A stretch of DNA of 64,000 nucleotides. Origin: Bacillota bacterium. Its GTDB lineage: Bacteria > Bacillota > Clostridia > Peptostreptococcales > Anaerovoracaceae. The notes under the pieces are model-generated. The model was not told the DNA's origin, searched no databases, and worked only from the letters and a program-made list of their open reading frames with translations. The position numbers were made by a program, and so were the translations under genes. Position 1 is the first letter of the stretch, and every line of letters begins with the position of its first letter. Positions 1 to 5,374 of this stretch are shown piece by piece. The stretch is from positions 1 through 64,000 of the forward strand of contig JAQXQE010000010.1 in assembly GCA_029101005.1 (NCBI GenBank), written 5' to 3'.

Positions 1-1112
1 CCCTCTGGTACTGATACCTCGGCAATTGTGTATTTAACAGCCTGGCCTGCCTCGTTAACTGGGAGGTTCTTGAACTCGCCCTTCCACTTATTGTCAGCAT
101 TCAGTGTAACTGTCTTGCCATCTACTGCAACGCCGTTTGCCTTGAGCTGTACTGTTACGCTCTCCGGTCTCAGGTTGTCACGATTGTTATCATCGTTCCA
201 TACCTTTGTTACATCTACGGATGTCTCTGCTGGCTTATGAGTATTTGTTACTGTATAGCCGTTAGCAGCATCACCTGTTATTGCTACTGTGTAGCCTGCA
301 GGAGCAGATACCTCTGTGATTGTGTATCTGATTGCCTGGCCAGCCTCGTTAACTGGGAGGTTCTTGAACTCGCCAGTCCAATTGTTGCCATCGTTCAGTG
401 TGAGTGTCTTGCCCTCAACTGCAACGCCGTTTGCCTTGAGCTGTACTGTTACGCTTGCAGGTCTCAGGTTGTCACGGTTGTTATCATCGTTCCATACCTT
501 CTCAACAGCAACTGATGTCTCTGCTGGCTTGTAAGTATTTGTTACTGTAAAGCCCTTGCTTGCATCACCTGTTACTACTGACTTGTAACCTTCTGGTACA
601 GATATCTCCGCGATTGTATAAGTAATCGCAACGCCAGCCTCATACTTAGGCAGCTTTGTGAATGATCCTGCCCAGTTGTTGCCATCGTTCAGTGTGAGTG
701 TCTTGCCCTCAACTGCTGTTCCGTTAGCCTTGAGCTGTACTGTTACACTTGAAGGTCTCTTGTTGTCACGATTATTATCATCGCTCCAAACCTTAGTTAC
801 ATCTACTGATGTCTCTGCAATCTTGTGTGTATTAGTGATTGTGAAGCCATGTGTAGCATCACCTGTTACTACTTTTACATACTCAGCAGGTACCGTTGTC
901 TCTTCTACTGTGTATACAATCTTAACGCCATCCTTGTATGCTGGCAGATTGTTCCATGTCTTTGTCAGAGTAGCCTTATCGAGGATTACCTCGCTGCCTA
1001 CTGCAACATTGTCCGCATAGAGAGTAACTCCATAGTCTGCTCTCTTTCTGTCGCGGTCGTTATCGTCGTTCCATACCTTCTTAACAGTTACGCTTGTAAG
1101 CTCAGGTGTATC
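1..1112 (-). repeat. Tandem CnaB repeat units of the adhesin
   Basis: Reading on the minus strand, four units follow each other: 1112-828 (95 codons, most diverged), 827-534 and 533-240 (98 codons each, 294 bp period), and 239-1 (cut by the edge). Units 2-4 share long identical nucleotide stretches, for example the segments around 40-80 and 333-375, so duplication is recent or is being homogenised. More units may lie outside the window, and short-read assembly could have collapsed them. Confidence 0.88.
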
Positions 1113-3617
1113 TGCTACGGTGTATGAATCGTTAGTAAGATCTGACTCAAGCTTGTAAGTCTTAACCCACTTGCCGTCGATTACAGACTCACCAGTCTGA
1201 ACCTGTGTAACAACTACTGTCTTAACCTCTGGGTTAAGTGTGTAGCCTACAGGTGCAGCAGTCTCCTTGATGTAGAAAGTTCCCTCTGATGTGAACTTGT
1301 ATACGAGCTTGCCGTCCTTAAGAGTTGTTGTGCCAATCGCATTTGTGCACTCTGCGTCAGTGTATACTGTGAAAACAGCCTTGTTAGCGTCTGTCGCAGG
1401 GATTGCGTTATTTGTGTTGGCATCAATCTTGTTGATTGTGATTGTCACAGGATCAACCTTGTCTTCGCCCTTAACCTTCTCGTTAACGAAAGCGGCAGTA
1501 GGTGAATCGTTACCCTGAACTGTTCCAGTTGTTCCTGTTGCACTCTGGAGTCTGAAGCCTGCTGCATCAGCCTCGCTTACCTCGTATGCTGTTCCAGCTG
1601 GAACATTTACGATTCGGATTGTCTGATTCTGCTTAATTGTGAGAGTAACCTGTCCATTCTCGATGTCACCTTTATCAACTTCGTTGCTACCCTCATAGAT
1701 TCTGTATCCGAGATCTCCTGACTTGCTGTCAGCAGGTGTTGATACAGCCTTGCCATCCTTATCCTTAAGTGTAACTGTGAATGTGAACTCACTTCTGTTA
1801 GCAGTATCGCCTGCTACTTCCTTTGTGATGTTGATTCCACCCTTAACTGTGTTGATAGCTGTAAGCTCTGCCTTGTTGCCAGTCCATACTGTGTTTGACT
1901 TAAGGTCAATAAGATCTTCAGTGTCATTTGTTGTGTTACCGTTCATCATAGGCTGAACTGGAGCAACTTTCAGCTCATAATGATTCTCAACACCTGTAAC
2001 TACTTCGCCGTTGCTGTTCTTATAGTTCTTCTCGTATGCAGTGTACACGTGACCTGGCACGAGGATTCCGTTGCTACCTGCACCGTGAGCATTTGGTGCT
2101 ACAACGATACCAGGAGCAACTGTTATCTCCTGCTTCCATTCGTTTGCTGCATTGAGAACTACTTCCTTGTAATCCTTGCCATCCTGAGTGATTACTACTG
2201 TAATCTCAGATGGTCTGTCTGATCCGCTTGTGAGGTCGTCAACCCATGACTTTGTAACAAGAAGCTTTGTTGAAGCCAGTGGGATTGGATCTGGGTTAGT
2301 GATTACTACTGTACCAGGAGTTCTTACTGGATCCTTTCCAGTTTCCTCCTTCAGCTGTACATAGTCAACCTTAGCCTCTGTATTTGTCTTGAGACCACCC
2401 TGCTGTGTCAGCTGGTTCCACTCAGCAGCTGTAACTGCCTTGTCACCAACCTTTGTAGTTGTGTCTCCATAACTAATTGTTCCGTTTGCAACTGCTGCTG
2501 CGATATCGTAAGCTCTCTGGCTTGGCCATACTGTGAAGCTTACTTCGTACTTTGTATCCTCAAGTTTGCGGATTGAACTGAGATCCCAAGTTACAGTTCC
2601 GTTGTTGAAGCTTGCAGCTGGTGCACCTGCCCATGGCTGTCCGCCCTTTGTGTACTTGAAATCGCCCACTGTTCCATCAACATTTACCATTGATGTCAGT
2701 GACGTCACACCATCAGATACTACAACTGACTCATAGCTGAATTTATTTGTGATCTCGTTTACGATATTAGTGAAAGCCGCCTCAATCTCCTCCGAATCTT
2801 TACAGCTGAAGTAATTATCTTCATTGCCATTCGCATATGTTACGAGATTCTTCATTCTATCGACATTACCATATGCGCCGATTCCGTAGAACTTATAGCC
2901 TGCATCGGTGAATGCCTTTGCATCATCCTTCGCCATCTCATAGCAACGATAAATATTCTGGGAGCTTTCTTGTCCAGTTCCATATGCCCCGTAAGATTTA
3001 CTGTAATCATCCCATCCATTACCTGTGTTACGGAATGTTGGATTACCATCAGATACGAAGATTACATACTTGGCTGCACCCTCGCGTGTCTGAATGGTCT
3101 TTGCCACCTGAAGAGCATCTTCCCAGTTGGTTCCACCATTAGCCTTCAAGTCATCTAACTTGCTGTTGAAGTCATTTAAGCTAGTTGTCTGGGCAATCTT
3201 CACAGATGCGTGATTGCTGAAGGAAACTAAAGAGAGCTGCACCTTATCTGGTGTAGTACTATCGTTGTTTGAGAGAAGCTCTGATGCAAGCTTCTTTGTT
3301 GATTTCTTAGCGGCAGCAAGTCTTGTCGTGTCTCCAGTCTCGTAAGACATTGAGCGAGATACGTCCATGATGATGATTACATCAGCCTTGCTGGACTCTG
3401 TGCTTGCCTGTGACTTGCCTGTGACGCTCAGTGAGAGATTATAGGTTCCGTCACCGTTCGGTGTGAGTGTCTTCGATACTTCTGGTGCGCCAAGATCAGT
3501 TACAGCTGCCCCGCCTCCAGTAGTACCCGCATCTTCTGCGAATGCAATGGATGGCATATAGTTGACCATCATCACACAGCACATCATGATGCTGAATAAT
3601 TTCTTGAATCTTCTCAT
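1..3617 (-). CDS. Giant secreted vWA/CnaB-repeat adhesin (3' end outside window)
   Basis: Continuous minus-strand reading frame of about 1205 codons with no stop before the left edge, so the C-terminus (and any LPXTG sorting signal) is not visible. ATG at 3617 has a GGAG Shine-Dalgarno seven bases upstream; an in-frame ATG at 3629 is less well placed. Residues 1-28 are a signal peptide ending AFA-ED. Residues about 78-295 form a von Willebrand A domain with a MIDAS motif (D85-x-S87-x-S89, a later GGTNW threonine and SDG aspartate). Next come a pilin-like segment with the INITKEVAGD motif, a SpaA-like prealbumin-type domain (FYIKETAAPVGY), and then tandem CnaB domains with the Lys (VTKVW), Glu (YTIAEVS) and Asn (TVTNT) positions expected for self-formed isopeptide bonds. 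Family knowledge says such proteins are wall-anchored host or matrix adhesins. Binding target unknown. Confidence 0.9.
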   Translation of the reverse strand, partial: MRRFKKLFSIMMCCVMMVNYMPSIAFAEDAGTTGGGAAVTDLGAPEVSKTLTPNGDGTYNLSLSVTGKSQASTESSKADVIIIMDVSRSMSYETGDTTRLAAAKKSTKKLASELLSNNDSTTPDKVQLSLVSFSNHASVKIAQTTSLNDFNSKLDDLKANGGTNWEDALQVAKTIQTREGAAKYVIFVSDGNPTFRNTGNGWDDYSKSYGAYGTGQESSQNIYRCYEMAKDDAKAFTDAGYKFYGIGAYGNVDRMKNLVTYANGNEDNYFSCKDSEEIEAAFTNIVNEITNKFSYESVVVSDGVTSLTSMVNVDGTVGDFKYTKGGQPWAGAPAASFNNGTVTWDLSSIRKLEDTKYEVSFTVWPSQRAYDIAAAVANGTISYGDTTTKVGDKAVTAAEWNQLTQQGGLKTNTEAKVDYVQLKEETGKDPVRTPGTVVITNPDPIPLASTKLLVTKSWVDDLTSGSDRPSEITVVITQDGKDYKEVVLNAANEWKQEITVAPGIVVAPNAHGAGSNGILVPGHVYTAYEKNYKNSNGEVVTGVENHYELKVAPVQPMMNGNTTNDTEDLIDLKSNTVWTGNKAELTAINTVKGGINITKEVAGDTANRSEFTFTVTLKDKDGKAVSTPADSKSGDLGYRIYEGSNEVDKGDIENGQVTLTIKQNQTIRIVNVPAGTAYEVSEADAAGFRLQSATGTTGTVQGNDSPTAAFVNEKVKGEDKVDPVTITINKIDANTNNAIPATDANKAVFTVYTDAECTNAIGTTTLKDGKLVYKFTSEGTFYIKETAAPVGYTLNPEVKTVVVTQVQTGESVIDGKWVKTYKLESDLTNDSYTVADTPELTSVTVKKVWNDDNDRDRKRADYGVTLYADNVAVGSEVILDKATLTKTWNNLPAYKDGVKIVYTVEETTVPAEYVKVVTGDATHGFTITNTHKIAETSVDVTKVWSDDNNRDNKRPSSVTVQLKANGTAVEGKTLTLNDGNNWAGSFTKLPKYEAGVAITYTIAEISVPEGYKSVVTGDASKGFTVTNTYKPAETSVAVEKVWNDDNNRDNLRPASVTVQLKANGVAVEGKTLTLNDGNNWTGEFKNLPVNEAGQAIRYTITEVSAPAGYTVAITGDAANGYTVTNTHKPAETSVDVTKVWNDDNNRDNLRPESVTVQLKANGVAVDGKTVTLNADNKWKGEFKNLPVNEAGQAVKYTIAEVSVPE

Positions 3618-3674
3618 GTTTTGCTCCATTTCTTTCAAAGATTTCTTCTTAGTAATAACTTCCCCCAAAAATAC

Positions 3675-3785
3675 AAAAACCGCCCTCCCTACGCAGGAGT
3701 GCGGCAACTGGCTGTCTTTCCATTCTGTCAGCAGAGTGGCGAAGACCCTATAGCTTTCCGTCAGCAGTTTTCACTACTTTTGGCA
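3675..3785 (-). promoter_or_regulatory. Cyclic-di-GMP-I (GEMM-I)-like riboswitch with terminator, adhesin leader
   Basis: Read on the minus strand, the leader shows the GEMM-I layout. There is a 6-bp stem AGUAGU/ACUGCU capped by a GAAA tetraloop, then GACGGAAAGCUAUAGGGUC, then a second arm closing with GACAGCCAGUUGCCG, all close to the family consensus. P1 can form as UGC-CAA with UUG-CC-GCA (plus-strand 3780-3785 with 3700-3707). Immediately after, 3704-3680 folds into a GC-rich hairpin followed by five U (3679-3675), a Rho-independent terminator. The P1 3' strand and the terminator 5' strand share the CCGCA bases, so they exclude each other. By inference, ligand binding would open the terminator (ON switch). 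No search was run. Confidence 0.75.
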
Positions 3786-3834
3786 TGTTTCTTTATTTTT
3801 GAATGCATTTTCCCTAATTTTATTTAGGTTCTTT

Positions 3835-3840
3835 ATTATA
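3835..3840 (-). promoter_or_regulatory. Adhesin/riboswitch promoter (-10)
   Basis: On the minus strand TATAAT is preceded by TGA, an extended -10 element. The expected start near 3828 lies just ahead of the riboswitch. No good -35 was seen. Apart from this and the riboswitch, the 3618-3985 gap holds an inverted repeat TGTCGA-N6-TCGACA (3888-3905) and the nfnB terminator. Confidence 0.5.
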
Positions 3841-3933
3841 TCATTTTTCTCGTAATAATTCTTGTATCTATTTCAATAATTATCTTTTGTCGACATATTT
3901 CGACACAACATTCTACTATCTTTGTACAAAACT

Positions 3934-3966
3934 AAAGAGCAGTAGCTTATATAGCTACTGCTCTTT
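3934..3966. terminator. Bidirectional-looking terminator after nfnB
   Basis: Fourteen-base-pair hairpin AAAGAGCAGTAGCT / AGCTACTGCTCTTT with a five-base loop. On the minus strand, after nfnB, it runs into TTTAGTTTTG. Confidence 0.75.
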
Positions 3967-3985
3967 GTTTTATCTACTAGATATA

Positions 3986-5374
3986 CTACTTATTCTGCAG
4001 GTATTCGTGCATTGCAGCTGCGGCTTTCTTGCCTGCACCCATAGCCTTGATTACTGTAGCAGCACCTGTTACAGCATCTCCGCCTGCGAATACTCCAGGT
4101 CTTGTTGTTGCACCTGTCTCATCGTCAACCTTGAGTCCACCTCTCTCATTTAGATCAACTCCATCTGTTGTATCTCTGATGAGTGTGTTGAGCTTTGTTC
4201 CGAGAGCCATGATTACAGCATCAGCCTCAATCTCGTACTCTGATCCCTCGATTGGAATTGGACGACGACGGCCTGAAGCATCTGGCTCGCCGAGCTCCAT
4301 CTTGATGCACTCGATGCGGTTAACGTGATTCTTCTCATCACCGAGGATTCTAACAGGGTTGTTGAGGAGGTGGAACTCGATTCCTTCCTCTTCAGCGTGC
4401 TCAATCTCCTCAGCTCTTGCTGGCATCTCGGCTCTTGATCTTCTGTATACTACATGAACATCAGCGCCCATTCTCTTAGCGCAACGAGCTGCGTCCATAG
4501 CTACGTTACCAGCACCAACTACAACTACGTTCTTGTTGTGCTTGATAGGTGTATCATACTCATCGAGGTATGCCTTCATCAAGTTGATTCTTGTGAGGTA
4601 CTCGTTAGCTGAATATACTCCAACGAGGTTCTCTCCCTCGATGTTCATGAACATTGGGAGTCCGGCTCCTGTTCCGATGAATACTGCCTCATATCCCTCA
4701 TCGAAGAGGTCATCGATGTAGATTGACTTTCCAACTACTACGTTGTGAATGAACTTAACACCCTTCTTAGCGAGTGTCTCAATCTCGTATCCTACGATTG
4801 CCTTTGGAAGTCTGAACTCTGGAATTCCGTATACGAGTACTCCGCCTTCCTTGTGCAGACTCTCGAATACTGTTACGTCATATCCAAGATTGATAAGGTC
4901 ACCAGCACATGTCAGACCAGCAGGGCCTGAACCGATTACTGCGACTTTTCTTCCGTTTGACGCTACTTCCTTAACATCAGCATTGCCGATGTGCTCCTTG
5001 TGCCAGTCAGCAACGAATCTCTCGAGTCTACCTACTCCTACAGGCTCACCCTTGATTCCACGGATGCACTTACCCTCGCACTGAGTCTCCTGTGGACATA
5101 CTCTTCCGCAGATAGCTGGAAGTGAGTTTGTTGATGTGAGAATATCATAAGCCTCAGCGAACTCGCCTGCTGCTACCTTCTCAATGAACTCAGGAATTCT
5201 TACATTTACAGGGCAGCCGTTAACGCATGGCTTGTTCTTGCAGTTGAGACATCTCTTTGCCTCGCCGATTGCCATCTCCTCTGTGTATCCAAGAGCTACC
5301 TCATCGAAATTCTTATTACGAACGTCAGGCTCCTGTGATGGCATTGGAGTCTTAATCATTACATTGTTACTCAT
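3986..5374 (-). CDS. nfnB: NADH-dependent ferredoxin:NADP+ oxidoreductase large subunit NfnB (GltA-like)
   Basis: 462 residues of the glutamate-synthase small-subunit-like flavoprotein family. The N-terminal domain carries two cysteine sets, C42/C45/C50/C54 and C89/C93/C99/C103, for two [4Fe-4S] clusters. An FAD-binding GSGPAG lies at 148-153, a second Rossmann motif VVGAGNVAMD binds NAD(P)H, and the family's C-terminal GGDAVTGAATVI sequence is present. It overlaps by 8 bp the end of a ferredoxin-reductase-like gene (5367-6215). This two-gene arrangement is typical of NfnAB, which couples NADPH, NADH and ferredoxin by electron bifurcation in anaerobes. No glutamate synthase large subunit is nearby, which argues against a true GltBD role. 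The alternative name 'NADPH-dependent glutamate synthase, GltA' is common for this family. Confidence 0.88.
   Translation of the reverse strand: MSNNVMIKTPMPSQEPDVRNKNFDEVALGYTEEMAIGEAKRCLNCKNKPCVNGCPVNVRIPEFIEKVAAGEFAEAYDILTSTNSLPAICGRVCPQETQCEGKCIRGIKGEPVGVGRLERFVADWHKEHIGNADVKEVASNGRKVAVIGSGPAGLTCAGDLINLGYDVTVFESLHKEGGVLVYGIPEFRLPKAIVGYEIETLAKKGVKFIHNVVVGKSIYIDDLFDEGYEAVFIGTGAGLPMFMNIEGENLVGVYSANEYLTRINLMKAYLDEYDTPIKHNKNVVVVGAGNVAMDAARCAKRMGADVHVVYRRSRAEMPARAEEIEHAEEEGIEFHLLNNPVRILGDEKNHVNRIECIKMELGEPDASGRRRPIPIEGSEYEIEADAVIMALGTKLNTLIRDTTDGVDLNERGGLKVDDETGATTRPGVFAGGDAVTGAATVIKAMGAGKKAAAAMHEYLQNK

Follow-up and report, generated by a model that had tools for sequence, protein, structure and literature searches.

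The window, by which we mean the whole stretch of 64,000 nucleotides analysed here, opens inside a gene for a giant VWA/Cna_B surface adhesin read on the minus strand (1-3617). The window holds the N-terminal 1,205 residues of the protein, with matches to VWA, DUF7604, DUF7601 and SpaA domains and five Cna_B stretches, which bears out the giant CnaB adhesin that the original prediction had placed downstream of a riboswitch. By eye, the start codon (ATG at 3617) has a GGAG six bases 5' of it and the N-terminus resembles a signal peptide; among solved structures the adhesin head gave a single match (9no5, E = 7.1e-5). The frame is cut at the contig end, leaving contig C10 at its position 1, which is also the start of the window. 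At the end of another contig, C21, lies an open frame of 760 residues, of which the first 46, compared by eye, are identical to the last 46 of the window frame; it carries five Cna_B stretches of its own, one of them in or beside the shared part, and finishes with KPNTGDD, a hydrophobic stretch and RRKREN, that is, with a PNTG-type anchor preceded by K and not by L. The gene probably spans these two contig ends, with its 3' part on C21, and would encode about 1,919 residues (1,205 + 760 - 46) provided that both frames belong to a single gene from which no repeats have been lost. A single sortase match (family PF04203, C10:142058) is present in the genome, and the protein can be described as a putative sortase-anchored Cna_B adhesin with its motifs split over two contig ends.

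Upstream of the leader of this gene lie the end of a gene with Fer4_20 and Pyr_redox_2 matches, which we take to be glutamate-synthase-small-subunit-like, and a terminator-like hairpin located by scan at 3966-3934. An extended -10 promoter element, TGATATAAT, was recognised by eye at 3835-3843 on the minus strand (the site scan did not list it), and transcription is expected to start near 3829. At the other end of the leader stands an intrinsic terminator on the minus strand, a hairpin of -15.7 kcal/mol at 3705-3679 followed by a T-run to 3675; it had been predicted directly behind the aptamer and was found there. A simple scan caught its inner stem alone (3699-3685), and five terminator-like sites were counted on both strands of 3400-4100 against 0.3 expected in shuffles.

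The aptamer itself occupies 3794-3700 of the minus strand, where the Rfam search returned a full-length match to RF01051 (c-di-GMP-I, or GEMM-I; model positions 1-87) that scored 61.3 bits, the gathering score being 35 bits. The E-value is 1.5e-9 for the whole window and 1.7e-11 when 701 bases are searched, and RF01051 is the sole Rfam family above its cut-off across the window; eight weaker matches to other RNA families in 3400-4100, each below half of its own cut-off, were taken as chance. The minus-strand GEMM-I riboswitch of the original prediction is thereby recovered by a significant match to the c-di-GMP-I model, as is the core described for it, a GAAA-capped stem with AAAGCUAUAGGGUC and GACAGCCAGUUGCC. 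In the Rfam alignment the GAAA-capped stem (3783-3758) rests on a two-pair base, C3783-G3758 and C3782-G3759, and its outer pair is inverted to C-G relative to the commoner G-C (six CG and eight GC among 14 sequences of the genus). The tetraloop-receptor stem (3755-3706) has outer pairs running from A3755-U3706 to U3752-A3709, and the UU of UUGCCGCA closes it via A3755-U3706 and G3754-U3707. The three pocket positions map to G3784, A3757 and C3704, which we equate with G20, A47 and C92 of Vc2. Of these, G3784 occupies the ligand-selectivity position, at which a G usually goes with c-di-GMP, and C3704 is the expected Watson-Crick partner of the ligand while also pairing with G3680 in the terminator. 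The family score and the pocket residues fit c-di-GMP, which is the best reading for the ligand of this predicted aptamer.

The structure taken from the window's Rfam match was also evaluated on an alignment of all 14 RF01051 aptamers of the genus. In this set 89.5% of 238 cells are paired; shuffles reach 72.7% and slid versions of the structure 16-50%, a comparison in which both controls tilt somewhat toward the tested structure because it stems from the window's own match and the sequences are related. The covariation score of 0.592 (0.282 +/- 0.030 when shuffled) was matched by none of 500 shuffles. Changes on both sides of a pair affect 45 cells across the 14 sequences, compared with 15.5 in shuffles, and ten pairs have changed on both sides against 7.3, a number that 21 of 500 shuffles also attain. 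The inner receptor stem (helix 4) is weaker, with 77.1% of its cells paired.

The association of riboswitch and adhesin extends to related species. Searched with the first 462 residues of the adhesin at E 0.001 or better, 14 of 47 genomes of the genus gave a match, and four carry close forms, namely the genome of the window and its relatives G010, G060 and G061, which are 52-53% identical to the query over nearly its whole length. RF01051 lies just upstream of the adhesin in all four, the copy of G010 scoring 35.5 bits, barely above the cut-off. The remaining ten genomes match at 31-38% identity over longer stretches, or in short pieces; RF01051 is absent from the whole assembly in each of them, and the upstream regions of five distant homologues from four of these genomes gave no RF01051 match at E 0.5. 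Overall, 14 RF01051 matches occur in six of the 47 genomes, and the absences are not firm because the survey applied stricter filters, with up to 60 candidates scored per genome, and the completeness of several assemblies is 59-90%. None of 14 named control genomes gave a match to RF01051 and they therefore supply no positive control, which the relatives do provide. Scanning genome contigs with the adhesin returned seven relatives, most of them matching chiefly in the repeat region; in the two that were scanned for riboswitches none was found.

Within these relatives the arrangement is sometimes elaborated. In G061, with genes named by eye, a gltA-like gene end comes first, then an EamA-like transporter, then riboswitch and adhesin; behind them lie another riboswitch and another signal-peptide-like protein. 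Loci L078 and L080 on contig C71 of this genome form tandem riboswitch-surface protein units, in which the first Cna_B-type frame ends before the second riboswitch begins. In G010, a further riboswitch (L025, C10:16389-16476) lies some 3.5 kb away from the unit of riboswitch and adhesin and directly 5' of what appears by eye to be a subtilisin-like secreted protein, with seven T right behind the aptamer and no clear hairpin.

Regarding the contact between aptamer and terminator, the original prediction had the 3' strand of a closing P1 helix overlap the 5' arm of the terminator. The end of the aptamer does overlap this arm, if shallowly, but the P1 helix could not be found: Rfam's structure of the window contains no closing helix between 5' and 3' ends, and pairing between the 5' flank and GCCGCA, sought by eye, was seen neither in the window nor in the G061 leaders. 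The terminator arm starts at G3705, one base past the last Rfam pair, A3755-U3706, so that the paired part of the aptamer and the terminator are not in conflict. The two share G3705, C3704 and C3703 only, none of which is paired in the Rfam structure. Since the arm takes C3704, the expected ligand-pairing base, ligand and complete terminator would nevertheless compete. We consider it probable, from this geometry, that the riboswitch controls the adhesin as an ON switch at the level of transcription, with the region of C3704 instead of P1 as the point of contact. Without c-di-GMP, the terminator would close down to G3705-U3679 and transcription would stop; with c-di-GMP bound, C3704 and probably also C3703 would be kept in the pocket, and a hairpin deprived of its base, two nucleotides away from the T-run, would allow read-through and more adhesin. 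Holding the aptamer through C3704 weakens the hairpin from -15.7 to -11.9 kcal/mol with a 2-nt gap to the T-run, and it counts against the ON switch that this shortened hairpin can coexist with the held aptamer end.

Further support for the ON switch comes from the conservation of the riboswitch-adhesin unit across the four species that carry a close adhesin and from related terminators. If the end of the aptamer is kept, most of the hairpin energy is lost in the riboswitch of the G060 adhesin orthologue (G060a, -15.5 to -3.6 kcal/mol) and in the second riboswitch of the window's own genome on contig C23 (-16.8 to -4.8), the terminators of which take four more aptamer bases than that of the window; equally deep overlaps occur in G060c (-21.6 to -5.5) and G034 (-26.4 to -3.6). 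The two G061 copies repeat the terminator position and the GCCGCA junction of the window (G061b also by scan) and are as shallow as the window (-13.8 to -10.0 and -12.3 to -8.5 kcal/mol). It counts against the ON switch that pairing of the last 10 nt of the aptamer with downstream sequence does not stand out from shuffles for the window (53 of 200 as good) or the G061 copies (48 and 35 of 200), in contrast to 0 of 200 for G060a, C23, G060c and G034. Altogether, the terminator takes the ligand-pairing C in seven of 14 riboswitches of the genus, six by scan and G061a by homologous position. The scan made out no terminator for the G010 adhesin orthologue (G010a), G010b, G031 or G060d; for G010a this, like its 35.5 bits, speaks against the ON switch. 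The ON geometry therefore applies to three of the four close orthologues (the window, G060a and G061a). By eye, G060b has a separate, OFF-like terminator, and in G061c and G061d the aptamer end can pair with the ribosome-binding site.

An OFF switch, which we regard as unlikely, would require a ligand-free antiterminator in which the terminator's 3' strand (3684-3679) is taken up by the 5' flank together with G20-C-C (3788-3782), while C3704-C3703 pair with G3758-G3759; binding of the ligand would refold the aptamer and free the hairpin to terminate. In the folding ensemble at equilibrium this fold, which lacks the full terminator, takes up about 0.53 for a leader to 3668 and 0.75 for a leader to 3674, and class I switches of C. 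difficile are described as OFF (PMC6200980). It is also compatible with OFF that, among 26 loci drawn from 75 order-level matches and sorted by ourselves, the terminator begins beyond the aptamer in 16, with a clean overlap in two (L016 and L033, of one genome) and eight ambiguous cases. Against this, the local terminator should form first, because its base pairs reach probabilities of 0.87-0.97 for a leader ending at 3678. The bound state would also have to surrender C3704 for a complete terminator, the letters of the antiterminator differ, by eye, in the two G061 leaders that share the same terminator, and clear ON geometry is present in the orthologue G060a and in the second riboswitch of the own genome. 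The ON switch holds if the local hairpin decides as the T-run emerges, and OFF becomes possible if a pause of the polymerase gives the long-range pairing time to form. A different antiterminator, with the receptor-stem loop CGCCACUC paired to GAGGGCG, can be drawn by eye and is not seen in G061b.

It seems very unlikely that the aptamer no longer switches and that the terminator alone fixes a low, constant level of adhesin. The mere 35.5 bits of the G010 orthologue and the want of an evident gene, by eye, behind the other own riboswitch would suit such a state, but 61.3 bits with an intact pocket and the compensated C-G pair at the stem base speak for a maintained aptamer. GEMM-type riboswitches that sense 3',3'-cGAMP exist (PMC9262584); with a G at the selectivity position, this ligand seems very unlikely here. 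This position is no strict test of the ligand, because Bc2, with a predicted A, responds to c-di-GMP (PMC4933901).

Control of a Cna_B adhesin by a c-di-GMP riboswitch is already known from Bacillus thuringiensis, where the Bc2 RNA is described as a class I ON switch before the collagen adhesin Cap (PMC4933901). CbpA, an orthologue of Cap, is reported to have 17 Cna_B repeats and to bind collagen, and the riboswitch to be present in all cbpA-carrying strains (PMC7423583). As there, a class I riboswitch and a terminator directly precede a giant Cna_B adhesin of the LPXTG type, here a putative one; CbpA has N1-N3 domains and binds collagen, whereas the protein described here has a VWA head, the genus is another one, and ON has been shown for Bc2 and is predicted for our locus. 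The arrangement is thus extended to another genus and to a different adhesin head. The pilM ON switch of Geobacter metallireducens resembles the window in that its terminator sequesters the ligand-pairing base, there C75; in pilM this renders bound aptamer and terminator mutually exclusive (PMC9262584). It differs in its cGAMP ligand and in the pairing of a 5' P strand with the A strand, no such closing helix being seen here. Likewise, capture of the ligand-pairing base by the terminator suggests an ON design at our locus. The contrast that had been drawn with OFF type-I switches on motility genes holds in part: the class I switches described in C. difficile are OFF without exception, but a putative adhesin lies behind one of these (PMC6200980), the window's genome has no flagellin match, and a class I ON switch before a Cna_B adhesin is already published (PMC4933901; PMC7423583). 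The account of C. difficile describes class II switches as ON, three of which lie ahead of adhesins (known or putative) or, for one, of type IV pili, and five class I copies there have no detectable gene; Cdi-2-3 before CD630_28310 (CD2831) of Clostridioides difficile differs from the window in being class II (PMC6200980).

The own genome, a 99.62% complete assembly of 1.6 Mb in 27 contigs, contains three GGDEF matches, the motif being intact by eye in those on C19 and C9 and degenerate in that on C22; the C19 protein also matches HD_5 and HD and looks HD-GYP-like. Among the receptor and turnover types searched, no EAL, PilZ or MshEN match was found, in an assembly that may miss genes, while six, five and five of 14 control genomes were positive; the flagellin N-terminus likewise gave no match, with four of 14 controls positive. 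A search for c-di-GMP-II was uninformative, with no match in the own genome or in the controls. In view of these absences, c-di-GMP may have the adhesin as its main recognisable output. One could speculate on a small, apparently non-motile bacterium with a minimal circuit of two intact-motif cyclases, one an HD-GYP-like fusion, and one riboswitch with the adhesin as evident target, in which this RNA would serve as the chief or sole c-di-GMP receptor with an output, a picture that we consider rather doubtful. Should other c-di-GMP receptors truly be missing from the genome, it would offer a small natural system in which to test the effect of one riboswitch. Its second c-di-GMP-I riboswitch (L001:1501-1588, C23:60572-60659) lies behind a gene named folD by eye; its terminator overlaps the aptamer deeply, and another strong one stands at +87 to +123, with no evident gene following by eye. 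It is an orphan riboswitch on this view, perhaps the relic of a lost adhesin.

Other loci show further arrangements. At L016 and L033 (G044:C2:532781-536016), three c-di-GMP-I copies lie within about 3.3 kb, and in the two examined overlapping terminators stand 5' of signal-peptide-like proteins, unlike most order-level copies examined. At L019:1501-1586 the 5' arm of a 13-pair terminator consists of the last aptamer bases, 5' of genes named VTC-like and DUF4956-like by eye. L026:1501-1880 and L081 (minus strand) have some 100-250 nt of structured-looking sequence behind the riboswitch with no further Rfam match, and the riboswitch of L026 is followed, by eye, by a response regulator that combines cyclase-like with phosphodiesterase-like parts. 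A second RNA family behind the riboswitches of G031 and G060 (C24) was considered and rejected, as 13 loci of the genus yielded RF01051 alone at E 0.5. At L073:1119-1207 and L075:1501-1587 of G061 there is no clear terminator, and a 3' end of CCCAU could pair with AUGGGG or AUGGAGGG before the start codon; judged by eye, these two are possibly translational ON switches for signal-peptide proteins.
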